DNA from: a virus
Reading direction: 5' to 3' (one strand)
Virus record (IMG/VR): IMGVR_UViG_3300038415_000117
Span: 1 to 36,576 of that record
DNA length: 36,576 bases
This document shows, piece by piece, positions 4,381 to 32,872 of the stretch (position 1 is its first letter; every line of letters starts with the position of its first letter). The notes beneath the pieces are model-generated. The model worked only from the letters and a program-made list of their open reading frames with translations, was not told where the DNA came from and did no database searches. The position numbers were made by a program, and so were the translations under genes.

Positions 4381-4409
4381 TTGAGAATTACTGGCTAGCG
4401 GTGTAATAG
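4381..4409 (+). promoter_or_regulatory. class A promoter for the YqiJ-flotillin operon
   Basis: TTGAGA (4381-4386), a 17-base spacer ending CTAGCGGTG, and TAATAG (4404-4409) form a good sigma70-type promoter. ATG 4416 begins only six bases after the -10, so transcription should start at or next to the start codon. No ribosome binding site is visible in the gap. It shares its architecture with the other class A promoters of the window. Confidence 0.7.
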
Positions 4410-4415
4410 CCGTAA

Positions 4416-5063
4416 ATGTCTGAACTTCTCAAGTGGTACAATCTGATCTTCTATATCCCGCTGGTAATTGGGCTCCTATCGGTTATCGGTGTTGGTTTTT
4501 CTGGGACAGGCCACGACGTTGGGGTTCACGGAGATATCCACGGGGACTTTCATGCGGACGCTGACTCCGACACTGATGGTGATAACGACGGAGACAGTCA
4601 AGGGAACTGGGTTCTTGGGCTTCTCGGGATCGGAAGGGTCCCGGTCGCCATATCCATCATGACCCTGCTCCTGATCTTCTCGGGTACTGGAATCTGCATG
4701 AACACACTACTTGGGGGACTCCTCAAAGTGTGGAGCGGGTTTGCTTTGGTTTCGCTGGTTGTAGCGACTATCGTGATGTTCTTCGGTACCGCCTTCGTGA
4801 GTCGAACCGTGGGCAAGTTCATGCCCACCACTGAAACAGATTCAGTAAAGAAGATGGATCTCATCGGCTGTACCGGAACTGTCATTCTCGATTGTGACAG
4901 TTCCAGCGGGTTAGCTCAGATTTGTAACAAGAGTGGGGACCGCTATCAAATCCGATGTCGGTCGGAAAAGCCTATCCCCAAAGGAACTCCAATCCTAACC
5001 TTCGAATATAACGAAGCTTTTGACTCGTACACAGTAGTTGTTGACCCCACGATTGGTGGGTGA
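4416..5063 (+). CDS. YqiJ-like (DUF1449/NfeD-type) OB-fold membrane protein
   Basis: Three hydrophobic segments are visible, at about residues 9-28, 77-96 and 105-128, followed by a soluble C-terminal domain (about residues 145-212) with the small beta-rich look of an NfeD/YuaF OB fold (DLIGCTGTVI). Between the first two membrane segments lies an Asp/His-rich loop, including DADSDTDGDNDGD, likely to bind metal. YqiJ and YuaF are the membrane partners of flotillins in Escherichia coli and Bacillus. The flotillin follows 42 bases downstream, which strongly supports the call. A CCCAC/GTGGG hairpin lies at the stop codon. Confidence 0.8.
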   Translation: MSELLKWYNLIFYIPLVIGLLSVIGVGFSGTGHDVGVHGDIHGDFHADADSDTDGDNDGDSQGNWVLGLLGIGRVPVAISIMTLLLIFSGTGICMNTLLGGLLKVWSGFALVSLVVATIVMFFGTAFVSRTVGKFMPTTETDSVKKMDLIGCTGTVILDCDSSSGLAQICNKSGDRYQIRCRSEKPIPKGTPILTFEYNEAFDSYTVVVDPTIGG

Positions 5064-5105: not shown

Positions 5106-7043
5106 ATGGGTATTGGTCTATTTTTTCTGTTGCTCTTCGGGGTACTTCTAATCGCTAGTCCGATAGCCGTGAATACGTTCACGACTCACCAGGTCTCGGG
5201 GTTGTCCTCGATTATTATGACCCTCAGCGGGGTCCTACTCGTTCTGTTATGTGTCGTTCTCATAACAATTACGAAGCTTTATGTCAAAACGAAGGCCAGT
5301 GAAGCCTTCGTCAAGACTGGTATGGGCGGGCTAAAGGTCATTCGAGATGGTGGCGCTGTCATCCTCCCGGTCGTCCACCAGATAGTCCGAGTCTCTCTTG
5401 AGACCATCAAATTGCCGGTACAGCGTATCGGGGCTGATGCTCTCATCACCAGTGACAAATTGCGTGCTGACGTCCAAGCTGAGTTCTATGTTCGAGTACA
5501 AGCTTCAGATGAGGACATTAAAGCAGCGGCCCGTTCTCTTGGTGACAAGATGAGCGAGGTCAATGTAAATGCTCAACAGCAAAGAAGGTCTGATGGAAAG
5601 GCCTATGAGTCGAGTGTAGCGGCCCTCATTGAGGACAAGTTGGTGTCCGCCCTTCGTACTAGTGCAGCCAAGAAAACCCTCGAACAGCTCAACAGTGACC
5701 GAGATGAGTTCTTGAAGGAAGTTGTGGATGGGGTCACCGCGGACCTGAAGCACAATGGGTTCCTCCTCGAAACAGTCACCATTTCCAAGTTGGACCAGAC
5801 CGATATCACTAACCTGAAAAATGATAACATTTTCGACGCCCAAGGTCTGAGAACCATTGCTGCAATCACCCAAAAGAACCTCACCGAGAAGAACTCCATC
5901 GTACGTACCGGTGAGCAGGCTCGAAAGGATCAAGACGTTCAGACCCGTACTCAGATCCTAGAACTGGAGAGGAAGCAATCTGAGGCTGAAGCCAATCAGT
6001 CCGCCCAGGTCCTCTCGATTCAAGCTGAACAAGAACGCATTGGTAAGCAGAACCAGATCGAAGCTCAACGCAAGGTTGACGTTGCTACCACTGAGAATGC
6101 CCAGCAGACCATCCTCGCCAAGGTTGCCCAAGAGCAAGCGGTTGAGGTTGCAAAGCGTCAACAACAACAAGCCATCGTGATTGCTGACCAGAAGGTTGAA
6201 GTTGCAAAGCGGGACCAGCAGAAGGCCATTGCTGGCTCTGAAGCTGAGAAGGCAAAGGCTGAAGCCCTCCTCGCTGATGCTGAAGCTGAACGTCAGAAGG
6301 CCCGCCAGAACATCCAAACGGTAGAGGTAGTTGCTGCTGCTGACCGAGAGAAGCAGAAGGCAGTTATCGCGGCCCAAGGTGAAGCTGAGAAGAACTATGT
6401 GACCGCCCAAAGGACAGCTGACGCTGGTGCTTACAAGACAATGAAGGAAGCTGAAGCTCGTAAAGCATCGGCTGATGCAGATGCTGAGGCAGTAACCAAG
6501 CAAGCCTCAGCAGCCTCAAAGGCAGCTGAGCTTCAAGCTGCAGGTAATAAAGCTCTGCTCCTGGCCCAAGCTGATGGTGACAAGGCAAAGCTCCTTGCTA
6601 CAGCCGAAGGTCAGAAAGCTTTGGCCATGGTTCCTGTCGAGGTCAATGCCCGCCAGGTGGAAGTCGACAAGCAACGAGTCGAAGAAGTCCTCAAGCCGGA
6701 ACTCGAAGCTCGTGCGGCCAACGGTGAAGCAGCCCAAAACTTCGAACTGGCCAAGTTGTCCATCACCCAAGAAGCTCTGGTCAAGATCGAATCAGCCAAG
6801 GCTACAGCTCAGTTCTATGGCAAGATCCAAGCCAATGTGTATGGGACCCCTGAGGACGTCGCCAAGATGTCCCAGCACTTCAATGCAGGCATGGGTCTAT
6901 CCCAGGCCTTCGGCGGGTTTCTAGCCGGTGCTGATGCTTCCACAGCCGAAACAGTCCAGAAGACAGTTGGCGCAGTCAACGACCTAGTAAGCTCAGTAGG
7001 CAAGATGGTGGGTAAGAAGGCCTCGAAAGAGACTACCACCTAA
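5106..7043 (+). CDS. flotillin (SPFH/band 7 protein, YqiK-like)
   Basis: This 645-residue protein has two N-terminal membrane segments (about 3-24 and 36-58), an SPFH domain (about 60-250) and a long coiled coil rich in Ala, Glu, Gln and Lys, with repeated EAE, AEAE and QAK units. Such flotillins assemble as large membrane-bound rings that organise membrane microdomains. The C-terminus (about 575-645) is less charged, as in YqiK. It forms an operon with the YqiJ-like gene. The leader holds a hairpin (CCCTGC 5074-5079, GCAGGG 5083-5088) that covers the purine-rich AGGGGG, and a start-stop ATGTAA at 5095-5100, so translation may be regulated. Flotillins are rare on phages. Confidence 0.9.
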   Translation: MGIGLFFLLLFGVLLIASPIAVNTFTTHQVSGLSSIIMTLSGVLLVLLCVVLITITKLYVKTKASEAFVKTGMGGLKVIRDGGAVILPVVHQIVRVSLETIKLPVQRIGADALITSDKLRADVQAEFYVRVQASDEDIKAAARSLGDKMSEVNVNAQQQRRSDGKAYESSVAALIEDKLVSALRTSAAKKTLEQLNSDRDEFLKEVVDGVTADLKHNGFLLETVTISKLDQTDITNLKNDNIFDAQGLRTIAAITQKNLTEKNSIVRTGEQARKDQDVQTRTQILELERKQSEAEANQSAQVLSIQAEQERIGKQNQIEAQRKVDVATTENAQQTILAKVAQEQAVEVAKRQQQQAIVIADQKVEVAKRDQQKAIAGSEAEKAKAEALLADAEAERQKARQNIQTVEVVAAADREKQKAVIAAQGEAEKNYVTAQRTADAGAYKTMKEAEARKASADADAEAVTKQASAASKAAELQAAGNKALLLAQADGDKAKLLATAEGQKALAMVPVEVNARQVEVDKQRVEEVLKPELEARAANGEAAQNFELAKLSITQEALVKIESAKATAQFYGKIQANVYGTPEDVAKMSQHFNAGMGLSQAFGGFLAGADASTAETVQKTVGAVNDLVSSVGKMVGKKASKETTT

Positions 7044-7968: not shown

Positions 7969-8778
7969 TCAGGGCAGCCCTTGCCATAGTAAGTATGCTG
8001 TAGCTGTACCTGTGGCAACCGTACCCGACACTGTTACATTTGCATAGATTAGCTGTCCAGCTGGGTAAACAGCTTCAAACCCAGTGCTCTGGCCCATGTC
8101 TGATCCCAGGGTGTTCAATGCAAAACCACCAACGATGGACCCTACAGTTGCAGCTGGGAGTATGATCTGGTTTAGGATGATCTGTTGCCCACCTGAAGTT
8201 GATCCTATGCTGACTGTCGAACTCGGGGTACCACTTCCAGTGACGGCTACCTTCACTCGAAGGTCGATGGACATTAACTTCCACCGGCCAGGACCCGTCG
8301 GAGTCGCAGGTCGAGTGTCGATCAGGTAGTTACCCGTTGTGGTCAGATCAATATCAGCAGCCATAGTCACTAGGGTGCTACTAGGTGCGGGTGTTTCCCA
8401 ATCTGCATTGGTGGAAGAAGTAGCAGTAAGTACCTGACCGGGACTTGGGGCTGTGGCTGAAGAGATCGAGACTATTGTCGTCGCACTCTGAAGTCCTGAG
8501 GCGTTACGAAGTGAATCAAGAGCCCCAGAGGTCAGTATGTGGGTTACAGTAACCCCATTGGCATGGGATACGTTTGTCGTCCCCTCTGACCCTCTTTGGA
8601 CGGTGAAAGTAGCCCCGCTGACACCAGTCACCAGCATGAGTTCGCTCTCAACCAAGATCCTGAATTGAGGGAGGGTAGGAAACTCAGAAGGGTCATTGAC
8701 CACCAACGAAGTTACCACCCCATCAATCCCTCCATCGAGAGTCGTGATAGCCTTGTTGGCGAACCGCTCAGTTGTCAT
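7969..8778 (-). CDS. phage virion (tail fibre/baseplate-type) protein
   Basis: From ATG 8778 the product is 269 residues. Residues 25-80 hold a module common in phage fibre and baseplate proteins: a strand ending LPQFRILVESELMLVTGV, then TFTVQRGSEGTTNVSHANG and VTHILTSGALD. The rest is Ser/Thr/Gly/Ala-rich, beta-type sequence without charged clusters, typical of a trimeric receptor-binding or decoration tip. It lies 60 bases downstream of the collagen-like fibre gene on the same strand, so the two are probably expressed and assembled together. A TTG at 8784 is an alternative start. Confidence 0.75.
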   Translation of the reverse strand: MTTERFANKAITTLDGGIDGVVTSLVVNDPSEFPTLPQFRILVESELMLVTGVSGATFTVQRGSEGTTNVSHANGVTVTHILTSGALDSLRNASGLQSATTIVSISSATAPSPGQVLTATSSTNADWETPAPSSTLVTMAADIDLTTTGNYLIDTRPATPTGPGRWKLMSIDLRVKVAVTGSGTPSSTVSIGSTSGGQQIILNQIILPAATVGSIVGGFALNTLGSDMGQSTGFEAVYPAGQLIYANVTVSGTVATGTATAYLLWQGLP

Positions 8779-8838
8779 ACCCAACTAACCAGGCATAAGA
8801 ACTTCAGCTAAAGGTAGGCCCTGCAAGCTTGGAATCAA

Positions 8839-11193
8839 CTAACCATTCGTTGGGGTTTGATCTAGTTGGTAGATATCCCAATTACCCAAAGAGTAAGGGA
8901 TGTATTGAGTACCGACCCCCCAACTTACTGGTACTATGGCTCCTCCGCCCCAGTTGAAGATGTTAGTACCGCCAGCTGTACTAACAGTCCAGTTAGCCCC
9001 ATCAACGCTGTACTCTGAAATGTAATTCACCCCATCAAAACGTAAGCGTACCCAGGTAATACCATTGGTAGTGTGCATGTTGTTTGCAGTTAAACCACCA
9101 TAGTAGTTACGGGTATGACCTGAGAACCCGCAGGCTGATGCTGACAATAGCAATGGACCATAGGGGCTATCCTGAGGCCCAAACATAAACCGATTACCAC
9201 TCCCATCGAGGAGAACTATATTTATACTGGAGTAAGGGTTACCGTCACCACCGCGTGCACCTGTTGGAAGGTACTTGGTGGCCATCGTAATAGTCCAGAT
9301 ACCACCTGGGCCCACGTTCAATGCTGGGGATGGGGGTAGCCAATCGACGTAGTCTGGCGCGGGGTTCGCCAGCAAGCTAACCATTCTAGTGTAGGTATTA
9401 TGTGCTTGTAGAACCGCTGCGTCAGCAATCCCACTCTCATAAGTCCAACCAGAGATATCACCAACGGATAGCGGTATTGGTACAAATCCAGGTAGTATTA
9501 TGTTCCAATGATGACTTATGTCGACTAGTTGCGTTGTATCATCCGTAGGGATATACATAGTTCCATCTGGAAGCCCAGCAGGATCCGGAGTAGCTGAAGC
9601 CAAACCAACATAAATTGTACCCCCGCCACCACCCCCGCCACCGCTAGACCCTTGGAATCCTTGAACTCCTTGAACCCCACTCCCTTGGAATCCTTGGGGC
9701 CCACTTCCTTGAACTCCTTGAACCCCCTGTGGTCCCACATTTCTCATCAACCGGATTCTGGTAATCGTAGTTTGGAATGCGGTACCACTACCGGCTCGCA
9801 TAGCTGAGAGGAATAGGTTGATATCTGCTAATACGTGGCTATGTGAGACTGGAGTACTACTAATGGTTCCTTGGTAAATCGTACTCATCTGACTACGAGC
9901 TGGCCAACCACCACTGTAGTTAGGGGCTGTGAGTGCTTGAACTGAAGATCCGCTAAAGCCACTTGGAACTCTTAGAATAAAGGTTCTCGTACTAGCCCCT
10001 AAGCTATTAGGGGGTGAGCCTATGTAATCAGTATTTCCCTCAATCCACTTTATGGTCACACCAAGCTGATTCACATACCCACGAATTATCCCGATTAGAC
10101 GATCAGTAACACTTCCGGTTCGTGCATACAACCCACCGGCGGTGTTGTCATAATTGGCAGCCTCATTAGAAGTAGCGACATAGATCCACATCTCTAATGG
10201 GGTTGTGACGTCACCCGTAGGAATCACTTGATCTAGAGATACTGCTAAGATGGGTGTGCTAAAGACGCTACCGTATAGATCACAGTATGAGTTTGGGGTG
10301 ATCTGCAAACCTGATCCATTGACAATCTGCATAGCAGTTAGGTCATTGGCGCTATTGAGCTTATTCCAGGTCAAACCCCCAATTGTGTAGGGTCCATCAG
10401 GAGAGAGTACTTGACTTGGTTGGGATGAAAAATCGATCTCCCATACCGCAGCCCATTCGTCAGGCCCCCCACCTCCCCCACTGCCCGAGCCTTGGAATCC
10501 TTGAGCCCCGATATCACCTTGCACGCCTTGAGTTCCGGACCCAACTCCCCCCTGAAAGCCTTGAGCCCCTTGGTATCCAGCTCCAATTGCTCCTTGATAC
10601 CCTTGAGCCCCGATATCACCTTGGTCACCCTGAACACCTTGGTCCCCTTGAGTTCCAGATCCTGTGGACCCTTGAGCTCCTTGAACTCCTTGAACCCCAA
10701 TATCACCTTGGTCACCTTGGTTACCCTGAGTCCCAGCTCCTGTGGACCCTTGAGCTCCTTGTCTTCCTTGAGTCCCAGCTCCTGTGGGCCCCTGAACTCC
10801 TTGTTTTCCTTGAGGCCCTTGGTATCCAGCTCCGCCCCCACCACCAGCCCCCTGCCAACCCTGATTACCTTGGGGACCAGAACCACCAGAAGATGTCGGA
10901 TCCAAACCACCCCTCTGTTGTTCAAACAGTACGCTAATTGCTGATGCAACAGTAGTGTAGTTCGAATCAGGTGATGGTATTATCGGGTTAGTTGAGAATA
11001 ACCCACCAATTATTGACTGTAGAAGCTCTGCCTCAGCATCTAGGTTGGTACTAGTCGTGTTGATAGCACTGTAGATGATTCCAGCAATATGTGCTACGTA
11101 ACTACTAGTGAGTGACCCTGTACCCCAGTGATTCTGACTACTATTGATGCCAGATACGATAGCGTCATAAAAATTAGGGTTGCTATGAGACAT
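8839..11193 (-). CDS. collagen-like tail fibre protein
   Basis: This 784-residue protein has an N-terminal helical domain (1-100), a long collagen-like block (about 103-245) of GxxG[FVYN]QG triplets, a beta-rich domain (about 248-480), a second short collagen block (about 486-523) with a poly-Gly run, and a C-terminal beta-sandwich-like region (about 525-784). Gln replaces Pro in most triplets, as in other phage collagen-like fibres, which form trimeric rods. The C-terminal domain, rich in aromatic and Asn/Gly residues, may bind a surface sugar. ATG 11193 is preceded by GGGAA. Confidence 0.85.
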   Translation of the reverse strand: MSHSNPNFYDAIVSGINSSQNHWGTGSLTSSYVAHIAGIIYSAINTTSTNLDAEAELLQSIIGGLFSTNPIIPSPDSNYTTVASAISVLFEQQRGGLDPTSSGGSGPQGNQGWQGAGGGGGAGYQGPQGKQGVQGPTGAGTQGRQGAQGSTGAGTQGNQGDQGDIGVQGVQGAQGSTGSGTQGDQGVQGDQGDIGAQGYQGAIGAGYQGAQGFQGGVGSGTQGVQGDIGAQGFQGSGSGGGGGPDEWAAVWEIDFSSQPSQVLSPDGPYTIGGLTWNKLNSANDLTAMQIVNGSGLQITPNSYCDLYGSVFSTPILAVSLDQVIPTGDVTTPLEMWIYVATSNEAANYDNTAGGLYARTGSVTDRLIGIIRGYVNQLGVTIKWIEGNTDYIGSPPNSLGASTRTFILRVPSGFSGSSVQALTAPNYSGGWPARSQMSTIYQGTISSTPVSHSHVLADINLFLSAMRAGSGTAFQTTITRIRLMRNVGPQGVQGVQGSGPQGFQGSGVQGVQGFQGSSGGGGGGGGTIYVGLASATPDPAGLPDGTMYIPTDDTTQLVDISHHWNIILPGFVPIPLSVGDISGWTYESGIADAAVLQAHNTYTRMVSLLANPAPDYVDWLPPSPALNVGPGGIWTITMATKYLPTGARGGDGNPYSSINIVLLDGSGNRFMFGPQDSPYGPLLLSASACGFSGHTRNYYGGLTANNMHTTNGITWVRLRFDGVNYISEYSVDGANWTVSTAGGTNIFNWGGGAIVPVSWGVGTQYIPYSLGNWDIYQLDQTPTNG
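10459..10884 (-). repeat. collagen-like coding repeat
   Basis: About 140 codons of tandem Gly-x-y triplets, with recurring 9- to 30-base DNA units such as CAAGGTGATATTGG and CAAGGAGTTCAAGG read leftward. A shorter block lies at about 9625-9735. Copies of this kind recombine easily, so length may vary between relatives. Confidence 0.85.
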
Positions 11194-14781: not shown

Positions 14782-15636
14782 ATGAATCGAACATGCCCTG
14801 TGTGTAATGTGGCCTACAATGCTAACCCTACTCGGTTGAAATTTGGGAGGCAGACTACATGTAGTCGAAAGTGCTCCTACTTGTTTAGGGGACAGCTTCT
14901 AACCACAAGCAAGGAACTTACTTGTGGTTATTGTGGGTCTAAATTTCGTAGGTCCCCATCGAGCGCTAAAACAAAACATGGGTTAAATTATTGTTCTCGG
15001 GAGTGCGGCTATCAAGCTGCTAGGCGTGGGTTGACCCCGCATGAGGTAACTAAGAAGTACACTTACACCGAGGAGAGTAAAGCCAGGTTAGTGGCCGCAG
15101 CTAGCAAGCCAAAAGGAAAGAGGGTCTACCATCCGCTGACTTGTTCAAATTGTGGGGTTAGGTTCGAAGACAAGTGGTATGGCAGAGCTAGAAAAAGTGG
15201 AATGACTTTCTGCTCTCCGAAGTGTTGTAATGAGTACAGAAAAGGGGATAAGAACCCCGCCTGGAGAGGTGGTCATCCTGAGTACTATGGCAATAACTGG
15301 AGGGCTATTAGGAGAGCAGTACGGGAGCGAGATAGTTACACTTGTCAAAGGTGTGGTAAGAAACCACCTAAGTTACCAGATGTTCACCATATTAAGCCAA
15401 TAGGGACTTTCAAGACACCTGAAGAGGGTAACTACCCCGAGAATCTAGTCAGCCTTTGCCATCCTTGCCACATGTATGTTGAGTGGAATGGGATGGACTT
15501 TGAGTGGCCCAAGAAGAGGGTCATACCCCTGAGACAAGGCGGTATTGCTGGTATAGCACCCCTCGATGATGCGGTCATATCTGGACCTGATGGGTTTCTG
15601 GGTCAACAACAACGCCTTCGGGTGGTGGGATCTTGA
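14782..15636 (+). CDS. HNH homing endonuclease with zinc-finger repeats
   Basis: The 284 residues hold three similar zinc fingers (CPVC...CSRKC, CGYCG...CSREC, CSNCG...CSPKC, each about 25-30 residues between pairs), a basic linker, and the HNH nuclease: CQRCGKKPPKLPDVHHIKPI, then NLVSLCHPCHMYVEW. HNH enzymes cut double-stranded DNA with a metal. Free-standing ones on phages act as homing endonucleases. The gene diverges from the methyltransferase with 24 bases between starts, and its last 62 bases overlap the convergent gene 15575-15985. The C-terminal 35 residues after VEWNGMDFEWPKK lie mostly in that overlap and look like a run-on tail. Confidence 0.9.
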   Translation: MNRTCPVCNVAYNANPTRLKFGRQTTCSRKCSYLFRGQLLTTSKELTCGYCGSKFRRSPSSAKTKHGLNYCSRECGYQAARRGLTPHEVTKKYTYTEESKARLVAAASKPKGKRVYHPLTCSNCGVRFEDKWYGRARKSGMTFCSPKCCNEYRKGDKNPAWRGGHPEYYGNNWRAIRRAVRERDSYTCQRCGKKPPKLPDVHHIKPIGTFKTPEEGNYPENLVSLCHPCHMYVEWNGMDFEWPKKRVIPLRQGGIAGIAPLDDAVISGPDGFLGQQQRLRVVGS

Positions 15637-15985
15637 ATACCACTACACTAGTCGGGCCCTTGATGGTTACCTTCAGATCGTGAAACTGAATGAGTACCCA
15701 CAACCGACTGTAAGTTGGAAACTTCACCAGATAGTCAGCAGCTACCACGCTGGTGACGTCATAGGTGCAGATCCAACCTCTATCAGTCTGCAGCTTAGCC
15801 GCCTTGGGGGGCTGCTTGTGATACTTGCTAATCAGACTGGGATATGGATCTTCGTTACTCCCTAGTATGTCTTTCCTGTACGCTGGCAGGACCAACTCCA
15901 AAAAGAACTTCTTGTCTTCAGTTGGATCGACTATGATCTGGGTATCAACCGTAACAGTTGGTTCTAGGGTAATGCGCATGTACAT
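15575..15985 (-). CDS. hypothetical phage protein
   Basis: This 136-residue protein is beta-rich at the N-terminus (RITLEPTVTVDTQIIVDP) and has aromatic C-terminal strands (LWVLIQFHDLKVTIKG). No family is recognised. ATG 15985 and ATG 15979 are both possible. Both sit in a perfect 13-bp hairpin, so translation may be controlled by structure. It is third in a leftward series after the lipoprotein and the papain-like protease. Confidence 0.6.
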   Translation of the reverse strand: MYMRITLEPTVTVDTQIIVDPTEDKKFFLELVLPAYRKDILGSNEDPYPSLISKYHKQPPKAAKLQTDRGWICTYDVTSVVAADYLVKFPTYSRLWVLIQFHDLKVTIKGPTSVVVFKIPPPEGVVVDPETHQVQI

Positions 15986-15995
15986 TACCCTAGAA
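15962..15995 (-). promoter_or_regulatory. 13-bp hairpin covering the start codon of gene 15575-15985
   Basis: TTCTAGGGTAATG (15962-15974) and CATTACCCTAGAA (15983-15995) are perfect complements around an 8-base loop. On the leftward mRNA the first ATG is at the inner end of the 5' arm and the second ATG lies in the loop. The sequence could be a translational switch or a protein-binding operator. No T run follows on either side, so it is not a typical terminator. Confidence 0.65.
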
Positions 15996-19200: not shown

Positions 19201-19728
19201 TCACCCACTCAATTTGAACGGGTACAGGGAGTTCCACACCTGTAACTCAATTTCTGCGGATATCTCTGGTTCAGGATCGAAAGTCCCTCGGGCAGGATAC
19301 CAGTGTAGAGCAGGGATGCGTGGACCCTCATAGAAGAACCCAATAGGTATGGCTTTCGATACATAAACCTTCCTACCAATATACGCCCCAATGAGACCTT
19401 GAATCAAGTCCCCAGGTTGAGACTCGGTAATGAAGTCCCTACCATAGCCTTTTAGGCTATGGTAATCGCGTGCATTGATAGTGAACGGACCTTTTCGGTC
19501 ACTCCATGACGTTCGTACTTCTTCTACTGTAGCTAGTAAGTGTTCCGGGTCTTCTGTGCAGATCATACCCCACATCTGCACCTCTTCGTCAGTAGCCTCG
19601 CGGATTTCCCCTTCCCAACCATTAGTCTTTACAATGTACCGGCTGTCAACATAGAAAGTAAGGCCGTGTCTTAGAGCGATTCGCTCTAAGTTTTTCTCAC
19701 GTATCCCAAATGGATCAATTGGCTTCAC
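19201..19728 (-). CDS. hypothetical protein with two strong mRNA hairpins
   Basis: This 175-residue protein starts with GTG 19728 (VKPIDPFGIREKN). It has no recognised domain. Pro/Gly-rich strands (LHWYPARGTFDPEPE) suggest a beta fold. Two near-perfect hairpins lie inside its coding sequence, at 19440-19464 and 19670-19690. It is part of the leftward run 20667 to 17467. Confidence 0.6.
   Translation of the reverse strand: MKPIDPFGIREKNLERIALRHGLTFYVDSRYIVKTNGWEGEIREATDEEVQMWGMICTEDPEHLLATVEEVRTSWSDRKGPFTINARDYHSLKGYGRDFITESQPGDLIQGLIGAYIGRKVYVSKAIPIGFFYEGPRIPALHWYPARGTFDPEPEISAEIELQVWNSLYPFKLSG
19440..19464. repeat. perfect 11-bp inverted repeat inside a gene
   Basis: TACCATAGCCT and AGGCTATGGTA flank a 3-base loop (TTT). 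It encodes part of YHSLKGYG on the leftward strand. The palindrome is longer than the coding sequence needs. Confidence 0.75.
19670..19695 (+). terminator. possible intrinsic terminator on the + strand, inside a leftward gene
   Basis: CTTAGAGCG, loop ATT and CGCTCTAAG are followed at once by TTTTT (19691-19695), the form of a rho-independent terminator for rightward transcription. No rightward gene lies just upstream, so it would stop antisense transcription into gene 19772 and beyond, or be a structure of the leftward mRNA. Confidence 0.5.
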
Positions 19729-25181: not shown

Positions 25182-25811
25182 ATGAGACTGGCTTCGACAG
25201 CTAGGTTGATGGCTTGGAGGTCCGAGCCATTGAAGACCTGGAACAAGGAAAATCCGCGTGGATTCGAACTCTTCTACAAGAAGGTTCGAGTCGCGCGGGT
25301 GTTCCCCTTCCGAGTCGGGCTCACCGAGTTCGACGACCGATGGTACTGGGTAGCTGGGTACGCCGGTGATTCAGAGGTACCAGCTATCCCTCGGAAGAAC
25401 TCTTCTAATGCCCCTCTTCATGACACTAGGAAGGCCAAGGACGAGTGCGAAGCCTACGTCCGCCAGTGTCTTGGGAAGCCCAAGCATGGATGTCGACGGA
25501 GACTCTCCTGGGTCAAAGAAGTCCCTGACCCAAACCGGTCTATAGCCATAGGTCCACCCCCAGGAGGCAAGTTCCTCCTCAATGAGAAGGTGGTGGTCGG
25601 AGAGGTGAAGCCCTTCCGGATTGGGTTCGGGGCGTACCGGGGTTGGTACTGGACCGCCGCGCTACCCCCCACTGACGAGTTCGCCCACCTAACCGTGGAG
25701 CCACGAAGCACGAAGAACTCACCTGTTAACAGTCTCAGGACGGCCAAGGACGATTGTGACGCTTACCTGCGAGAACAACTACTGATCAGTCCAATGAGGA
25801 AGAGACCCTGA
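25182..25811 (+). CDS. protein with an internal tandem duplication
   Basis: Two similar halves are visible (about 20-95 and 105-195). Each has a basic start, then V(F/K)PFR(V/I)G, a (W/Y)YW motif, Asn-Ser-Pro and a final AKD(E/D)C(E/D)AY(V/L)R. No known family was recognised. It starts two bases after the PspA stop, so it is part of the same operon and perhaps of the same complex. Confidence 0.7.
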   Translation: MRLASTARLMAWRSEPLKTWNKENPRGFELFYKKVRVARVFPFRVGLTEFDDRWYWVAGYAGDSEVPAIPRKNSSNAPLHDTRKAKDECEAYVRQCLGKPKHGCRRRLSWVKEVPDPNRSIAIGPPPGGKFLLNEKVVVGEVKPFRIGFGAYRGWYWTAALPPTDEFAHLTVEPRSTKNSPVNSLRTAKDDCDAYLREQLLISPMRKRP

Positions 25812-26983: not shown

Positions 26984-27820
26984 ATGCCTAGGGCCTTTGT
27001 CTATGTCATTCAGAACGTAAAAGACGGTAAGATCTACGTTGGGAAGACGATTAGTCCAAACGTCCGGTTCGGAAACCACTTGACCTATGCTCGTAATGGG
27101 TCTTCAAAGGGTCACCTGTACAAGGCAATACGGAAGTATGGTGAGTCCTCGTTCACATACAATCTTATTGAAGAGCACCAAACTGAGTCCGAGGCCCTTG
27201 AGGCTGAGAGGTTCTTCATCGCTTACCTGAGATCTATTGGGGCTAGGTTGTACAACTTAACAGAGGGTGGAGAGGGTACCTCTGGGTATAAGCGCTCACC
27301 TGAGCAAATTCAGAGAGGGGTTGAGAACTCTAGAGCTGGGCTGAAACAGGCTTGGGTTAAACCTGAGGTTAGGGCACGACATAGTCTAGCGAGGAAGAAA
27401 CTATGGTCTGATGAGAAACGTAGAGAGACCCAGGGCACTCTTACTAAGTTGGGCATGAGTGACCCTGGAGTAAAGAAAAAGCTTGTAGCTAATGGTCTTG
27501 CAGTTTGGGCGGACCCTAACTCACGAGAGAAGTTGTTGGCGGCAAACGCTAAGTCCGAAAGTCGTAAGGCCAAGGGTGATGCTGCTAGCAAGCGGTGGAA
27601 GGACCCTGGTAACCGAAAGAAGTATATGGCTAGCGCGCTTAATCCTGTTGTCCTAGAAGCTAAAAGACAAGCTTCACTTAGGCGCTGGGCTAGGTACCGT
27701 AGAGATAATGGGCTAGAGCCCAAGTTGGGTGACTTCGAGTTGCTCACCCGAAGCCATCTCGTACCAACGAGCGGAGAGCATTCGGGCATACAAGACAGGG
27801 TTCAATCCGTAATGCCCTAG
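26984..27820 (+). CDS. GIY-YIG homing endonuclease with NUMOD-type repeats
   Basis: The N-terminal 90 residues form a GIY-YIG nuclease: FVYVIQNVKDGKIYVGKT (variant of GIY-x10-YIG), the catalytic Arg in RFGNH, and Glu in LEAERFFI. The rest contains repeated basic modules typical of NUMOD3-like DNA-binding domains (GYKRSPEQI, and three tracts of A/S-x-K/R-W/L-DP-xR). Such proteins cut a target site and spread their own gene. The last 108 bases overlap the convergent ATP-grasp gene, and the tail after about residue 245 lies mostly in that overlap. Confidence 0.9.
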   Translation: MPRAFVYVIQNVKDGKIYVGKTISPNVRFGNHLTYARNGSSKGHLYKAIRKYGESSFTYNLIEEHQTESEALEAERFFIAYLRSIGARLYNLTEGGEGTSGYKRSPEQIQRGVENSRAGLKQAWVKPEVRARHSLARKKLWSDEKRRETQGTLTKLGMSDPGVKKKLVANGLAVWADPNSREKLLAANAKSESRKAKGDAASKRWKDPGNRKKYMASALNPVVLEAKRQASLRRWARYRRDNGLEPKLGDFELLTRSHLVPTSGEHSGIQDRVQSVMP

Positions 27821-28486
27821 TGAAAACGAATCATTCATTTCGACCAGTAGGGTGCGACCTTGTCGGTCAATACCCCAATCGAGGCTGTAGGCACGTGGAG
27901 CCTCTTTCTTCAGGGCTAGGAGAGCAGCCGCGTCCTCGACGATGCTTCGGTTAGGGGCTAGGGACCAGTCCCCCTTGTAGTGCCTCACATCAATGACCTG
28001 GTCCCTCAAGATGTAACTCCGGAATTCGGCTCTAAAGTACACGAAGTCTGAGATCCATACCTCAAACTCATCCGGTTGGGTTACAATTCTACGGCGGTCT
28101 TCGGCTCGGTTGTACCAAACAAACCCGGTGAATTCCTTGTGCTGGACCGGTTTGACGAATACAGGGGTAGTGGAAGATCTAACCTCTCCGAGGAGACCTC
28201 TCCGGATAGTGCGCCCGAGAACATGATGGAGTGGTCCAGGGTAGTCGATGTTCACCGGAATCGGACGACCGAGTCTCTTGAGAGCCCGGTGAACATCTCC
28301 AATATACCCGGCGACCCCAACGTGAGGACCCAGGTCGCACATGTTGTCGATGTCATCTACCCACTCGAAGGTGTCCAGCTCCACTCCGCACTCGGCAAAC
28401 CCGCGCCTAGAATAATCGCCCAGGACCGTCTCCGGGTAGTTTTCCCGGTGGCGGACATAAAACTTGGTGGCTTCGATGAGTTCCAA
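27713..28486 (-). CDS. ATP-grasp protein (DUF4343-like)
   Basis: This 257-residue protein has the C-terminal half of an ATP-grasp ligase: VFVKPVQHKEFTGFV, the ATP-binding YFRAEFRSYIL, then AYSLDWGIDRQGRTLLVEMND with a metal-binding Glu-x-Asn, and SLGHYGL. This layout matches DUF4343, a family frequent on phages, of unknown acceptor. ATP-grasp enzymes couple ATP hydrolysis to forming an amide, thioester or similar bond. The start is TTG 28486, directly after the TAA of the antirepressor and in the same frame; no ATG lies near. Confidence 0.8.
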   Translation of the reverse strand: MELIEATKFYVRHRENYPETVLGDYSRRGFAECGVELDTFEWVDDIDNMCDLGPHVGVAGYIGDVHRALKRLGRPIPVNIDYPGPLHHVLGRTIRRGLLGEVRSSTTPVFVKPVQHKEFTGFVWYNRAEDRRRIVTQPDEFEVWISDFVYFRAEFRSYILRDQVIDVRHYKGDWSLAPNRSIVEDAAALLALKKEAPRAYSLDWGIDRQGRTLLVEMNDSFSLGHYGLNPVLYARMLSARWYEMASGEQLEVTQLGL

Positions 28487-29380
28487 TTAGTGGTAGAAGC
28501 TATCAAAATCACTGATTTTCTTCAAGTCTTCTTCGCTGATGAAGTTGGTTCCTTCATCTTTGGTTGGTGAGGTCGGCGTCGGAGGGTCCAACAACTCGCG
28601 CGGAGCCCCGGGTCTCATGTTGGCCAAAGCGAACTTGTACAGGGGAATCAGGTGGCCCCACTTCTCAGCTAAGTCCAATGGTTTCACTTCTTTACGCTGA
28701 GTCTGGCTCATGGAGATAGCCGTCTGGTACAGATCGATCCCAGTCTCTCTTCCGTAGAGCCGGTAGAGCTTATCCCAACCTGATCGGTACTCGTACCCAT
28801 GCCCGCGGTCTGTCGAGCGCGAGACAATCTTCCCGAGGAGCGTTCGAATCTTCCTGGGGCTAAGACGAGTGATGTCCCCCTCATCCTCTTCGAGCTCTAC
28901 CCTGGGGGAGATGGCTCGGACTGCCGGCTCCAACTTCAGAGTCATTACGTGGGAGGTCAGGGTGGCCATGGACGTGATGAGCCTGTCCAAGGTATCATTG
29001 AGCCGATCTGTCTGGAAGCTTGATCCAGCACCATTGCGCCCAAAGAACCAATCAGCTATGGCTTTGGCAGCCAGCTTTTGGAACTGAATGAGCTTTGGTT
29101 TTACCTTGGGTGCAACCTTCGCAGGGTTAATGGTCGCCAACCACTGAGGGGCGGACTCAGTAGAGATACACAATTGCTTGTAGATCTTACCGTCAGCTGC
29201 AGTCATGGAGATCATCTCCATGACTGGCCATGGTAGGTCTTTCAGGCGTTTAATTTGACCAGAATGGTCTACCCCTAGTACCTCACAGACCTTCTTCACT
29301 ACAACCCAACCGTTTCCAGATTCGTCCCGAACCGCCTCCACCTCTTCGGAACCTATCTTCACGATCTCTGTCTTCGGCAT
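28487..29380 (-). CDS. phage antirepressor (P22_AR_N type)
   Basis: The N-terminal about 110 residues match the P22 antirepressor N-domain: GWVVVKKVCEVLGVDHSGQI, RLKDLPW, then APQWLATINPAKV and a helix with IQFQKLAAKAIADWFFG. Such proteins bind phage repressors to block them, or bind DNA. The C-terminal part is unrecognised, charged and helical (ISPRVELEEDEGDITRLSP), perhaps an effector region. The leader has an AGAAGGAGTG site and a GGTGTAATAC box. Confidence 0.8.
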   Translation of the reverse strand: MPKTEIVKIGSEEVEAVRDESGNGWVVVKKVCEVLGVDHSGQIKRLKDLPWPVMEMISMTAADGKIYKQLCISTESAPQWLATINPAKVAPKVKPKLIQFQKLAAKAIADWFFGRNGAGSSFQTDRLNDTLDRLITSMATLTSHVMTLKLEPAVRAISPRVELEEDEGDITRLSPRKIRTLLGKIVSRSTDRGHGYEYRSGWDKLYRLYGRETGIDLYQTAISMSQTQRKEVKPLDLAEKWGHLIPLYKFALANMRPGAPRELLDPPTPTSPTKDEGTNFISEEDLKKISDFDSFYH

Positions 29381-29402
29381 AGAAACACTCCTTCTGTTTC
29401 GT

Positions 29403-29412
29403 ATTACACCGA
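29403..29412 (-). promoter_or_regulatory. class B box (TCGGTGTAAT) before the antirepressor
   Basis: It is one of the GGTGTA copies; 22 bases separate it from ATG 29380, with a ribosome binding site in between. The TAA is also the stop codon of the preceding gene. Confidence 0.4.
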
Positions 29413-29625
29413 AGGTTTACTATCCTCCTCGATCGGTTCTGGCGGCTCAGACGGAGGCTCAAAGTAAATGGTCTCAGGTCGTGGCCTAGTTGGTTCAGGT
29501 TTGGGGGGCTCGGGCTCAACCTTGGGCTTGGGCTCTTCACCAGGTCTCGGTGGAACACCCACGGTTGTTTCAGCTTCCGACTCCCATATCAGCAGGCTGA
29601 TCCTATCCTCGATGCTCATACTCAC
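29404..29625 (-). CDS. Pro/Glu-rich disordered protein
   Basis: This 73-residue acidic protein, with a short helical N-terminus (MSIEDRISLLIWES), is followed by runs of P, E and K (PKPKVEPEPPKPEPTRPRPE). It is likely intrinsically disordered. The function is unknown. It ends 23 bases before the antirepressor start and may be co-transcribed with it. Confidence 0.6.
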   Translation of the reverse strand: MSMSIEDRISLLIWESEAETTVGVPPRPGEEPKPKVEPEPPKPEPTRPRPETIYFEPPSEPPEPIEEDSKPSV

Positions 29626-29644
29626 ACTTTAGCACTAGTAAGTT

Positions 29645-29684
29645 ATGAGCACCCGCCTCAGTGGCCACCCTTACGGGTGCTCAT
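29645..29684 (-). repeat. 11-bp stem with an alternative inner hairpin
   Basis: ATGAGCACCCG (29645-29655) and CGGGTGCTCAT (29674-29684) are perfect complements. On the leftward strand the first arm holds CACCC that could instead pair with the nearby GGGTG around a GTAA loop, so two exclusive structures are possible. No T run follows, so it is not a standard terminator. It lies 20 bases upstream of the Pro-rich gene. Confidence 0.65.
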
Positions 29685-29811
29685 TGATCTCTAAGTTGTA
29701 GACTCTCACTTCGTTCTTTCTTGGTTGGGGTTGAACTCTTGACTGTCGGTTCCAATCATTCCTCTGGTTTGAGCCACCAGAAGCTCACCGTCTTAGGTTC
29801 CGGCGTGTCAT
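29685..29811 (-). ncRNA. possible structured RNA or leader region downstream of a class A promoter
   Basis: A strong promoter (29817-29846) should start transcription near 29811, but no gene of normal size follows. The 127 bases hold only tiny open frames: ATG 29811 (8 codons, MTRRNLRR), ATG near 29759 (17 codons) and a coupled GTG frame (12 codons). A 6-bp hairpin (TCTGGT/ACCAGA, 7-base loop) lies near 29762-29781. The region ends in the 11-bp stem. It may be an attenuator leader for 29404-29625, a small RNA, or the remains of a gene. I searched for a tRNA fold and did not find one. Confidence 0.35.
29785..29811 (-). CDS. leaderless mini-ORF (8 codons)
   Basis: ATG 29811 stands exactly five bases after the -10 TAATAA, like the other class A starts. 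The frame MTRRNLRR ends at TGA 29785-29787. Such a basic 8-residue peptide may be a leader peptide. It may also be chance. Confidence 0.3.
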   Translation of the reverse strand: MTRRNLRR

Positions 29812-29816
29812 GCTTG

Positions 29817-29846
29817 TTATTACGCGCGAGCCACCCAAGAACTCAA
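29817..29846 (-). promoter_or_regulatory. class A promoter, minus strand
   Basis: TTGAGT (29846-29841), an 18-base spacer ending CTCGCGCG, and TAATAA (29822-29817), with five bases to the mini-ORF ATG. The GCTCGCGCGTAATA core is identical to that at 33201-33214. Confidence 0.7.
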
Positions 29847-29880
29847 CAAGAACTGTAAAAATAAGCAGTACTACAATCAG

Positions 29881-30198
29881 CTATCTTGACTTACCTGGGT
29901 ACTCGTGGGCTACACTAACCACCCATTCAGGTTTGATCTCTACCTCGTGGACTCCACACTTGGGACACATCTGACCCTCGGGGGCTTCCACTTGGACGTG
30001 GAGAGTCACATCCACTAGTTGGGTTGGGTGGGAGCTTCGGACGTGACGGACGACTCCGGAAGCCGTTCTAGCCTTAGCCTGGAACTTGGTCTGGACCCCA
30101 GCAAGGGAGACTCGCGTAGGGTCAGAGACCTCAAACCAATGGGCCACAACAAGGTCCCCCTTGTTAACTACTACGCACCCTTCGGACTTGATTTTCAT
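29881..30198 (-). CDS. hypothetical protein with CxxC site
   Basis: From ATG 30198 (ATGA overlap with the previous stop) the product is 105 residues. It is beta-rich (SEGCVVVNKGDLVVAHW, then VDVTLHVQVEA) with a late MCPKCGVHEVEI that could pair with an earlier Cys. No family is recognised. The coupled gene 30195-30437 and a class A promoter lie upstream. Confidence 0.6.
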   Translation of the reverse strand: MKIKSEGCVVVNKGDLVVAHWFEVSDPTRVSLAGVQTKFQAKARTASGVVRHVRSSHPTQLVDVTLHVQVEAPEGQMCPKCGVHEVEIKPEWVVSVAHEYPGKSR

Positions 30199-30437
30199 GA
30201 CAGTGTCTTTCTGGTTCTGAGGTCGCGTTGAAACCGTTCGTGCTCCGACAACCACCCGCGGGCGAACTCTTTCCTTGGAGCTTCTAGGGCGCCAGCGTTA
30301 GCATCGGCCACGATCTGTTTTAGGCTGTCCTGGCGCTGCTCGGGGGTCATATCCCAGAACCGCTCTCGACCCAGACCCTCAAAGTCGTTAGGTCCTGTAG
30401 CCTGGAGTAGCGGTCCATTGAGTATTTTGCTTACCAT
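30195..30437 (-). CDS. hypothetical small protein, leaderless start
   Basis: This 80-residue protein is mostly helical and basic (MTPEQRQDSLKQIVADAN, then RGWLSEHERFQRDLRTRK). No family is recognised. ATG 30437 lies five bases after the -10 of a class A promoter, without a ribosome binding site. Its stop overlaps the next gene as ATGA. Confidence 0.65.
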   Translation of the reverse strand: MVSKILNGPLLQATGPNDFEGLGRERFWDMTPEQRQDSLKQIVADANAGALEAPRKEFARGWLSEHERFQRDLRTRKTLS

Positions 30438-30442
30438 ACTCA

Positions 30443-30471
30443 GTATTACGCGCGAGAGTAGGAATTCTCAA
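30443..30471 (-). promoter_or_regulatory. class A promoter for gene 30195-30437
   Basis: TTGAGA (30471-30466), a 17-base spacer ending CTCGCGCG, TAATAC (30448-30443), then TGAGT and the ATG. It is one of the two best matches to the motif. Confidence 0.8.
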
Positions 30472-30508
30472 CACGATTTGGTGGGAAGTAGCCAAAAGTG
30501 CTTCAGGG

Positions 30509-30853
30509 CTAGATCTGAGTGAGTGAGCGCTTCTTGACCTTGTCGATGCTGACTTTGAGCCTGTCGATGAGGTCCTTCAACTCCGGAAATGGGGAATCCC
30601 CCTGCTCTTCCTCGGGGACCGCTGCCAGGAACCAGTTGTATCCAGTCACTCGACTACTCATGGGGTAGTCGATGTCCTCCCAGCTCTTCCTGGTCTGCTC
30701 CAAGTAGTCAATCGCTATCTTGACCGGATGGATCATACTCACAGCTAGCTTGTTGCGCCCCTCAGGAGTCCTGATGTACCTGCTCAAGATCTCTAGTATG
30801 AGTGGGTTCTTGTACTTGGATAGGTAGTTCTGGATGGCAGCTTCCTGATCCAT
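30509..30853 (-). CDS. hypothetical helical protein
   Basis: This 114-residue protein is helical (NYLSKYKNPLILEILSRYI, then LKDLIDRLKVSIDKVKKR). No family is recognised. ATG 30853 lies exactly eight bases after a class B box, which also contains the stop of the preceding gene. Confidence 0.6.
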   Translation of the reverse strand: MDQEAAIQNYLSKYKNPLILEILSRYIRTPEGRNKLAVSMIHPVKIAIDYLEQTRKSWEDIDYPMSSRVTGYNWFLAAVPEEEQGDSPFPELKDLIDRLKVSIDKVKKRSLTQI

Positions 30854-30861
30854 ACCTGAAG

Positions 30862-30871
30862 GCTACACCAA
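30862..30871 (-). promoter_or_regulatory. TTGGTGTAGC box (class B) before gene 30509-30853
   Basis: A perfect copy, eight bases before the ATG. TAG of the box is the stop codon of the upstream gene (30863-30865). Confidence 0.5.
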
Positions 30872-31051
30872 CTGAGAATCCTCATCCTCCTCGTTAGCGG
30901 GCGGTTGCACTTTGACCGCATAGGTCTGAGGCTGGTTCAGTCTATCCACAGGCGGGTTTCCATTAATGAAGATGCAAGTCCCGCAGTAATCGGGCGTTGA
31001 ATACTTGGCATCTGACGGGTACTTCTCTCCACATCGCTCGCATACACGCAT
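30863..31051 (-). CDS. small zinc-ribbon protein
   Basis: This 62-residue protein has MRVCERCGEKYPSDAKY and DYCGTCIF: two CxxC pairs 16 residues apart, a zinc ribbon. The C-terminal part is Pro/Asn/acidic (NEEDEDSQLV). No family is recognised. Longer in-frame readings upstream only shadow the acidic gene, so ATG 31051 is the likely start. A class B box lies about 19 bases upstream. Confidence 0.65.
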   Translation of the reverse strand: MRVCERCGEKYPSDAKYSTPDYCGTCIFINGNPPVDRLNQPQTYAVKVQPPANEEDEDSQLV

Positions 31052-31070
31052 TAGTGTGTCCCTGAAGCAG

Positions 31071-31080
31071 GCTACACCAA
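31071..31080 (-). promoter_or_regulatory. TTGGTGTAGC box (class B) before the zinc-ribbon gene
   Basis: A perfect copy in the 37-base gap after the acidic gene, 19 bases before ATG 31051. Confidence 0.45.
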
Positions 31081-31088
31081 GTATGGGG

Positions 31089-31304
31089 TCACTCTTCGTC
31101 TCCGAGGTCATCATCATCTTCCTCGTCGTCTTCATCGTCGAGGTCAGGCTCATCATCGTCGTCAACAGCATCATCGTCGGGAACGTCCTCGTCATCCCCG
31201 AAAGTGTCCTCACTTTCTACGGGGTCCGGGAACGGGTCTTGCCCGTCGTTCTCGTCACACTTCTCGCCATCGCAATATTCACCACCACAGTTAGAACAGG
31301 ACAT
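31089..31304 (-). CDS. Cys-rich protein with highly acidic tail
   Basis: The 71 residues start with four cysteines in MSCSNCGGEYCDGEKC (possible zinc knuckle). They then become almost pure Asp/Glu: from residue 17 on, most positions are acidic (DDEDVPDDDAVDDDDEPD). Long acidic tails can mimic DNA or bind basic proteins and metal. That is only an analogy. AGGAGA, overlapping the stop of the Fis-like gene, precedes its ATG, so the two are coupled. Confidence 0.65.
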   Translation of the reverse strand: MSCSNCGGEYCDGEKCDENDGQDPFPDPVESEDTFGDDEDVPDDDAVDDDDEPDLDDEDDEEDDDDLGDEE

Positions 31305-31305
31305 T

Positions 31306-31536
31306 TCAGGTCTCCTTCGGTGACTCTTTCCTCAAACCATGCCTCTTGGCCATATCGTGTAGATGCTTTCGATCCATGCTCACCTCCTTAGAGGCTGCTG
31401 ATAAGTTACCATTGTGGCGGCTCAATAGAAGCTCTACAAACTGACGTTCAAACTTGGTGACGAGCTCCGCCTTGATAGCTCCGAAACTACGCTCTGAAGG
31501 GTTGAATTCAACCGAGATCTGAATGGTCTGTGGCAT
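31306..31536 (-). CDS. Fis-type HTH regulator (stand-alone)
   Basis: The C-terminal 50 residues match the Fis/NtrC-type helix-turn-helix: FERQFVELLLSRHNGNLSAA, then SKEVSMDRKHLHDMAKRHGL. It has no AAA+ or receiver domain. At 76 residues it is a stand-alone DNA-binding protein, probably dimeric. The N-terminal 28 residues form beta-like sequence. A promoter (TTGCAA-N17-TAGTAA) is directly upstream, and the acidic gene directly downstream. Confidence 0.8.
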   Translation of the reverse strand: MPQTIQISVEFNPSERSFGAIKAELVTKFERQFVELLLSRHNGNLSAASKEVSMDRKHLHDMAKRHGLRKESPKET

Positions 31537-32350: not shown

Positions 32351-32593
32351 TTAGTCAAACTTGAACTTCCCTGTCGGTTGTCTTCGCTCGAAGATTTCGT
32401 GGATCACCATTACGTTGTAGGGATTGTTTCCAACCGTAAGCACTACTCGGTAGTGCTGCTCATCATCCAGGTCAGCTATCGCCGGCATGTTGGCCTTAGC
32501 CAACTCATGAAGAATATCAGCACAGAGTCTCTCGGCTCTGACTCCTAATTCATGGCTACTGTATCCCGACGGCCTGTACTTCAAGTTCATCAT
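32351..32593 (-). CDS. hypothetical protein
   Basis: From ATG 32593 the product is 80 residues. It has a helix (LGVRAERLCADILHELAKA) and strands (YRVVLTVGNNPYNVMVIHEI), a small alpha/beta fold. No family is recognised. The ATG overlaps the stop of infA (ATGA at 32593-32590), showing tight coupling. Confidence 0.6.
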   Translation of the reverse strand: MMNLKYRPSGYSSHELGVRAERLCADILHELAKANMPAIADLDDEQHYRVVLTVGNNPYNVMVIHEIFERRQPTGKFKFD

Positions 32594-32814
32594 TTCTTGG
32601 TTCTCCACGTGACAAGACCATGGGTCTTGTCAGAAGGCGCGACTTCAACCTGCACATCATCCCCAACGATTAGGCGAATGCCGAACTTCTTCATTTTCCC
32701 ACAAAGCTGAGCCCTAATAGGATCTGCACCATCTTGTGGAAGGATCTCATACTGACCGCCACCCAAAGCAGAGGTGACCCTTCCCTCGATTACGACATGA
32801 TCACTCTTCGGCAT
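32590..32814 (-). CDS. infA: translation initiation factor IF-1 homologue
   Basis: This 74-residue S1/OB-fold protein follows bacterial IF-1 along its length: SDHVVIEGRVTSAL, a beta hairpin, then GKMKKFGIRLIVGDDVQVEV and a terminal SDKTHGLVTWRTKK (normally PYDxTxGRIxxR). IF-1 binds the 30S A site during initiation and modulates the choice of start. The SGKM surface is CGKM, and the central region differs from host proteins, so its effect may be altered. An ATG-to-TAG leader and a GGAGCT site precede the ATG. Confidence 0.85.
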   Translation of the reverse strand: MPKSDHVVIEGRVTSALGGGQYEILPQDGADPIRAQLCGKMKKFGIRLIVGDDVQVEVAPSDKTHGLVTWRTKK

Positions 32815-32842: not shown

Positions 32843-32872
32843 GTATTACGTGCGAGCCTACTTGATTCTCAA
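32843..32872 (-). promoter_or_regulatory. class A promoter for the infA operon
   Basis: TTGAGA (32872-32867), an 18-base spacer ending CTCGCACG, TAATAC (32848-32843). The first ATG five bases on starts the MAIN leader. Confidence 0.8.

Follow-up and report, generated by a model that had tools for sequence, protein, structure and literature searches.

A minus-strand region of DNA from an uncultured bacterial virus is best read as the promoter and 5' leader of an operon encoding a Pro-rich protein, an antirepressor and an ATP-grasp protein, in which a leader with a uORF at its very 5' end would control translation. We give this reading a probability of roughly 0.4. Although the best single explanation, it is only moderately supported, and the leader may plausibly control the antirepressor operon. 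The window, that is, the whole stretch of DNA analyzed, is IMG/VR record IMGVR_UViG_3300038415_000117 (36,576 bases), a linear record that may be a fragment. Every feature of the finding lies on the minus strand where, from 5' to 3', the end of a gene at 29881 is followed by the promoter (29847-29818), the leader (29811-29626), the Pro-rich ORF, the antirepressor gene and the ATP-grasp gene. The first-pass annotation had described a promoter leading into a stretch without a normal gene, just before a Pro-rich gene and an antirepressor, and this arrangement is present on the minus strand: about 160 nt without a normal gene separate an 8-codon ORF from the Pro-rich ORF. The features are as follows.

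29847-29818, minus strand: class A promoter, GTTGAG-N11-CTCGCGCGTAATA, both blocks exact
29785-29811, minus strand: mini-ORF 1, 8 codons, MTRRNLRR; ATG at 29811, the predicted RNA 5' end; TGA at 29787-29785
29756-29788, minus strand: mini-ORF 2, 10 codons, GTG at 29788; GTGA overlap with mini-ORF 1
29783-29761, minus strand: small hairpin of 8 bp in the leader fold
29706-29759, minus strand: mini-ORF 3, 17 codons, ATG at 29759; ATGA overlap with mini-ORF 2
29671-29709, minus strand: mini-ORF 4, 12 codons, GTG at 29709; GTGA overlap with mini-ORF 3; TAA at 29673-29671 inside the large stem
29684-29645, minus strand: large stem H1, 11 perfect bp plus a G-U pair, -23.8 kcal/mol, no U-tract; when it forms, the Pro-rich start stays partly accessible
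29612-29652, minus strand: H2, a 14-bp stem with one bulge, in which the 3' arm of H1 pairs with the GTG/ATG start of the Pro-rich ORF
29404-29625, minus strand: Pro-rich ORF, 73 codons from GTG 29625 (or ATG 29619), weak Shine-Dalgarno
28487-29380, minus strand: antirepressor, P22_AR_N (PF10547, E=2.6e-25; PHROG anti-repressor Ant)
27713-28486, minus strand: R2K-clade ATP-grasp gene, directly downstream and probably in the same operon

The class A promoter class, already proposed in the first-pass annotation, is clearly real and firmly established across three phages. We identified six sites in the window with the pattern GTTGAG-N10/11-CTCGCGCGTAATA, allowing no more than one mismatch in its second block, and each is followed by an ATG exactly 6 nt downstream. 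When up to three mismatches were allowed, a total of 44 near-identical sites were found in three records: 6 in the window, 23 in IMGVR_UViG_3300038415_000126 (98.5 kb; G001) and 15 in IMGVR_UViG_3300031712_000006 (66.3 kb; G002), with none in reversed controls. Among 2.9 million viral contigs scanned, the exact motif occurred outside the window only in G001 and G002, and a relaxed pattern returned the same two records; no match was found in 84,980 prokaryote species genomes. CGTAATA is near-invariant across the class A sites, and TTGAG is separated from CTCGCG by 10 or 11 nt in every case.

At 32 of the 44 sites (33 counting one GTG), an ATG stands exactly 6 nt after TAATA, where about one would be expected, and the transcripts should therefore be leaderless. 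Several of the sites without this ATG carry instead a Shine-Dalgarno sequence before the next gene (AAAGGAC, GAGGAT or AGGGGAG), which argues that the ATG is no part of the promoter and that the RNA most likely starts at about +6. The leader site in the window follows the same rule, with its ATG at 29811, exactly +6, and the 8-codon ORF that had been placed at the leaderless position is real. Taken together, the 44 sites suggest that the transcript starts at this ATG or within 1-2 bases of it. A likely class A variant (CTTGAG ... CTAGCGGTGTAATA) was also observed at 4401-4416 on the plus strand of the window. The ATG of a YqiJ_N-domain gene lies 7 nt downstream of it, and an SPFH/Band 7 gene (5106-7043) comes after that gene.

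Phage transcripts have been described as often leaderless (PMC5312081), and leaderlessness as such is thus not new. In the literature searched, we found no description of a sigma-linked promoter class that fixes leaderlessness across a phage group. If a promoter class places the start codon at the very 5' end of the RNA for dozens of phage genes, leaderless translation would become a strategy of the whole phage programme, with a candidate dedicated sigma factor.

A candidate for this sigma factor is encoded in G002 at 8406-9203 (L026:859-1659). The 266-residue sigma-like protein scores above the TIGR02937 cut-off, has TIGR02479 (FliA/WhiG) as its best subfamily (E=2.9e-14), and matches FliA chains in the PDB (E=1.8e-5), with region 4 also matched. 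A homologue with 57-60% identity to the G002 copy lies in G001 (67648-68441, minus strand), split over two frames near 67910; no sigma gene was found in the 36.6-kb window, itself possibly incomplete. The sigma-like protein was also modelled with AlphaFold, but the quality of the model was low (pLDDT 47) and it was set aside. FliA/WhiG (sigma-28) promoters consist of two blocks, a -35 TAAA and a long GC-rich -10. The class A promoter is likewise built of two blocks, with a long GC-rich -10 (GCGCGTAA, against GCCGATAA for sigma-28) and similar spacing, which amounts to a weak match, but its -35 block is GTTGAG rather than TAAA, and recognition is putative. Judging from genome content, which is what links the two, a phage-encoded FliA/WhiG-like sigma factor likely reads the class A promoter.

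We further analyzed the coding features of the leader. The 17-codon (29759-29706) and 12-codon (29709-29671) frames noted earlier both exist, and a 10-codon GTG ORF at 29788-29756 that had been missed joins the mini-ORFs into a four-member chain, all linked by 4-nt NTGA stop/start overlaps. Chains with at least three such links arose in 0.34% of dinucleotide shuffles and, when every mini-ORF ATG of the three records was followed, in 0.31%; because the chain was noticed post hoc, it is suggestive rather than proof. From the sequence, we infer that the mini-ORFs may be translated.

The leader could instead be the decaying sequence of a broken leaderless gene of about 46 codons, interrupted by the in-frame TGA at codon 9. 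The 8-codon frame does remain open for 37 codons past this TGA, to the TAA at 29673-29671, and most class A ATGs open normal genes of at least 58 codons. However, an open run of 37 codons would arise by chance about one time in six, the 37-residue stretch has no homologue in phages, and the codon score of the frame (-0.02) lies at about the 5th percentile of real genes, with another frame scoring higher. Two other leaderless mini-ORFs moreover look functional, and we consider a broken gene rather unlikely, though still a live rival.

Leaderless mini-ORFs occur elsewhere in the group. At 32856 in the window, a class A promoter leads into a 4-codon leaderless ORF, MAIN, whose stop TAG overlaps the Shine-Dalgarno of the next gene, which encodes translation initiation factor IF-1 (32590-32814, minus strand; PF01176 41 bits, infA 49 bits). 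A leaderless ORF of 21 codons at 25202 in G001 likewise stops on the Shine-Dalgarno of the gene that follows it. Among about 11 sites that lack a normal leaderless gene, 3 have a +6 ATG (P about 0.0006 to 0.004). Together with these two ORFs, this indicates that leaderless mini-ORFs before a second gene recur in the group. A long structured leader like that at 29811 is so far unique within it.

As to structure, the small hairpin, the 11-bp stem and the alternative inner stem (CACCC-GUAA-GGGUG) described earlier are all present in the sequence. A larger competitor, absent from that description, pairs the 3' arm of H1 with 29625-29612 and thereby with both candidate starts of the Pro-rich ORF. 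The best 45-nt local fold reaches -24.8 kcal/mol versus -13.4 +/- 2.5 in shuffles, none of 300 being as low, and the whole-leader fold has z = -2.5. H2 is the more stable of the two in the full leader, by about 3 kcal/mol (ensemble -80.5 versus -77.8), and the AUG of the Pro-rich start is predicted to be unpaired in 0.9% of the free ensemble, 0.1% with H2 and 57% when H1 is forced. The duplex between leader and start (-21.1 kcal/mol) was equalled in 19 of 1000 shuffles (p about 0.02). Because an RNA ending at 29630 folds H1, H1 would come first and H2 would need refolding. The motif ATGAGCA occurs in both the 5' arm of H1 and the Pro-rich start and partly accounts for H2; this repeat could be a chance coincidence. 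The folding models suggest a switch between H1 and H2, and also its direction.

Perfect stems of at least 10 bp number ten in the window against 0.5 expected in shuffled sequence, an enrichment of about 20-fold, and most lie inside genes, so that H1 is not exceptional in the window and is weaker as evidence. Examples of perfect inverted repeats of this length are found at 15962-15995, 19440-19464, 29200-29226 and 32610-32632, the first of which spans the start of an ORF at 15575-15985 (minus strand). The abundance of stems favours the reading that the leader is an unregulated 5' UTR, in which H1 is one of many stems, possibly with a role in RNA processing or stability, and the mini-ORFs arose by chance except for the promoter-set ATG; short ORFs are also frequent by chance. 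We consider this unlikely: the +6 ATG is non-random at mini-ORF sites too, and the competing stem falls exactly over the Pro-rich start, at the p value given above.

H1 was rejected as an intrinsic terminator, because the large stem is followed by AACUUACUAGUGC and not by a U-tract, and a terminator scan of 28500-31500 found none within the leader. The large stem without a U-tract does not favour classical transcription attenuation, and the structure points to translational control. We also asked whether the arms of H1 could be copies of a repeated DNA operator; outside the two arms, ATGAGCACCCG has no exact copy and near matches are not above chance, and the idea was dropped.

Another possibility is a discrete small RNA, processed or terminated near H1, which acts in trans or on the antirepressor mRNA in the manner of the c4 RNA of P1 and P7. 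A precedent may exist in G001, where the class A promoter at 65161 leads, with no ORF, into an 11-bp terminator hairpin followed by six U (65203-65246), giving a candidate RNA of about 70 nt, and the leader in the window does contain an element complementary to the Pro-rich start. Yet H1 lacks the U-tract, and an Rfam search, suggested in the first-pass annotation as a check, gave no backing: neither C4 antisense RNA (RF01695) nor any other family matched the region at gathering score, and none was convincing at E up to 5. We regard a small RNA as improbable, but as a live rival nonetheless. A hit to InvR on the opposite strand was rejected, its 20.5 bits lying below the cut-off of 60, and no tRNA or tmRNA was found.

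Under the preferred reading of a translation-controlling leader, the sigma-read class A promoter would start the RNA at its first ATG or within 1-2 bases of it, and ribosomes would load on this 5'-terminal AUG without a Shine-Dalgarno and translate the 8-codon uORF. They may then hop through the three further mini-ORFs via the stop/start overlaps and finish within the large stem, at 29671. Two pairings would compete for the 3' arm of this stem: with the 5' arm in H1, which leaves the Pro-rich start partly accessible, or with that start in H2, which masks it. H1 would form first during transcription, with H2 predicted to be the more stable in the full leader by the 3 kcal/mol noted above, and a ribosome that occupies the 5' arm would prevent H1 and shift the balance to H2. 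Translation of the leader would in this way lower synthesis of the Pro-rich protein and possibly of the antirepressor.

The Shine-Dalgarno of the Pro-rich ORF is weak (-1.7 to -4.7 kcal/mol), whereas that of the antirepressor is strong (-10.0). These values speak for regulation of the Pro-rich ORF at the level of translation, but less clearly for regulation of the antirepressor, which has a strong site of its own and may escape the switch. The earlier suggestion that the region controls the antirepressor operon fits the anatomy, namely the start-masking stem, the weak Shine-Dalgarno and the lack of any other visible promoter, but no close homologue of the antirepressor or the Pro-rich protein was found to back it. 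The Pro-rich ORF had no match in Pfam or PHROG, matches to the N-terminal domain of the antirepressor were limited to Gordonia, Mycobacterium and Corynebacterium phages, at 29-35%, and neither protein had relatives in IMG/VR. The broader proposal of an attenuator or regulatory RNA likewise holds for its parts, since the promoter, the leaderless mini-ORF, the non-genic leader and the competing hairpins are all present, but it lacks comparative support: no homologous leader was found in the two relatives, phages, plasmids, or IMG/VR via the adjacent proteins, and the region matched the two relatives significantly in the promoter only. If the mini-ORF leader does control the antirepressor operon, it would link a phage decision gene to the translation of leaderless uORFs.

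The nearest described cases are E. coli mRNAs with 5'-terminal uAUGs (ptrB and others), which bind 70S ribosomes and raise or lower expression of the downstream cistron (PMC4965119); as predicted here, their 5'-terminal AUG begins a short uORF ahead of a normal cistron. In the window, by comparison, the position of the AUG is set by a phage-wide promoter class, the downstream gene has a weak Shine-Dalgarno, and a predicted start-masking stem follows. The c4-icd-ant operon of P1 and P7 consists of a promoter, a structured leader complementary to the next start, a small ORF and an antirepressor. The window shares this order, including the start-complementary element in a structured leader, but has no match to the c4 region in sequence or to the RF01695 covariance model, a single complementary element and a leaderless uORF. 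In translational attenuators such as ermC, a leader ORF lies beside alternative stems, only one of which can form at a time, and which expose or mask the next start. The leader in the window also combines an ORF with mutually exclusive stems over the next start, but with three segments rather than four and with the opposite predicted sign, a leader ribosome here hiding the start.

At its most far-reaching, this phage group might produce a leaderless mRNA class through a sigma factor of its own and turn the fixed 5'-terminal AUG into a regulatory device, with short chained leaderless uORFs feeding ribosomes to a switch that exposes or masks the first start of the antirepressor operon, and with the phage IF-1, expressed from the same promoter class, tuning such initiation; we treat this combination as a long shot. 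In G002, a class A site at 10932 (minus strand) has a GTG at +6 that opens a 2-codon ORF, with a strongly folded leader of more than 100 nt, and the gene after this leader is similar to the one that follows the 65707 promoter in G001.
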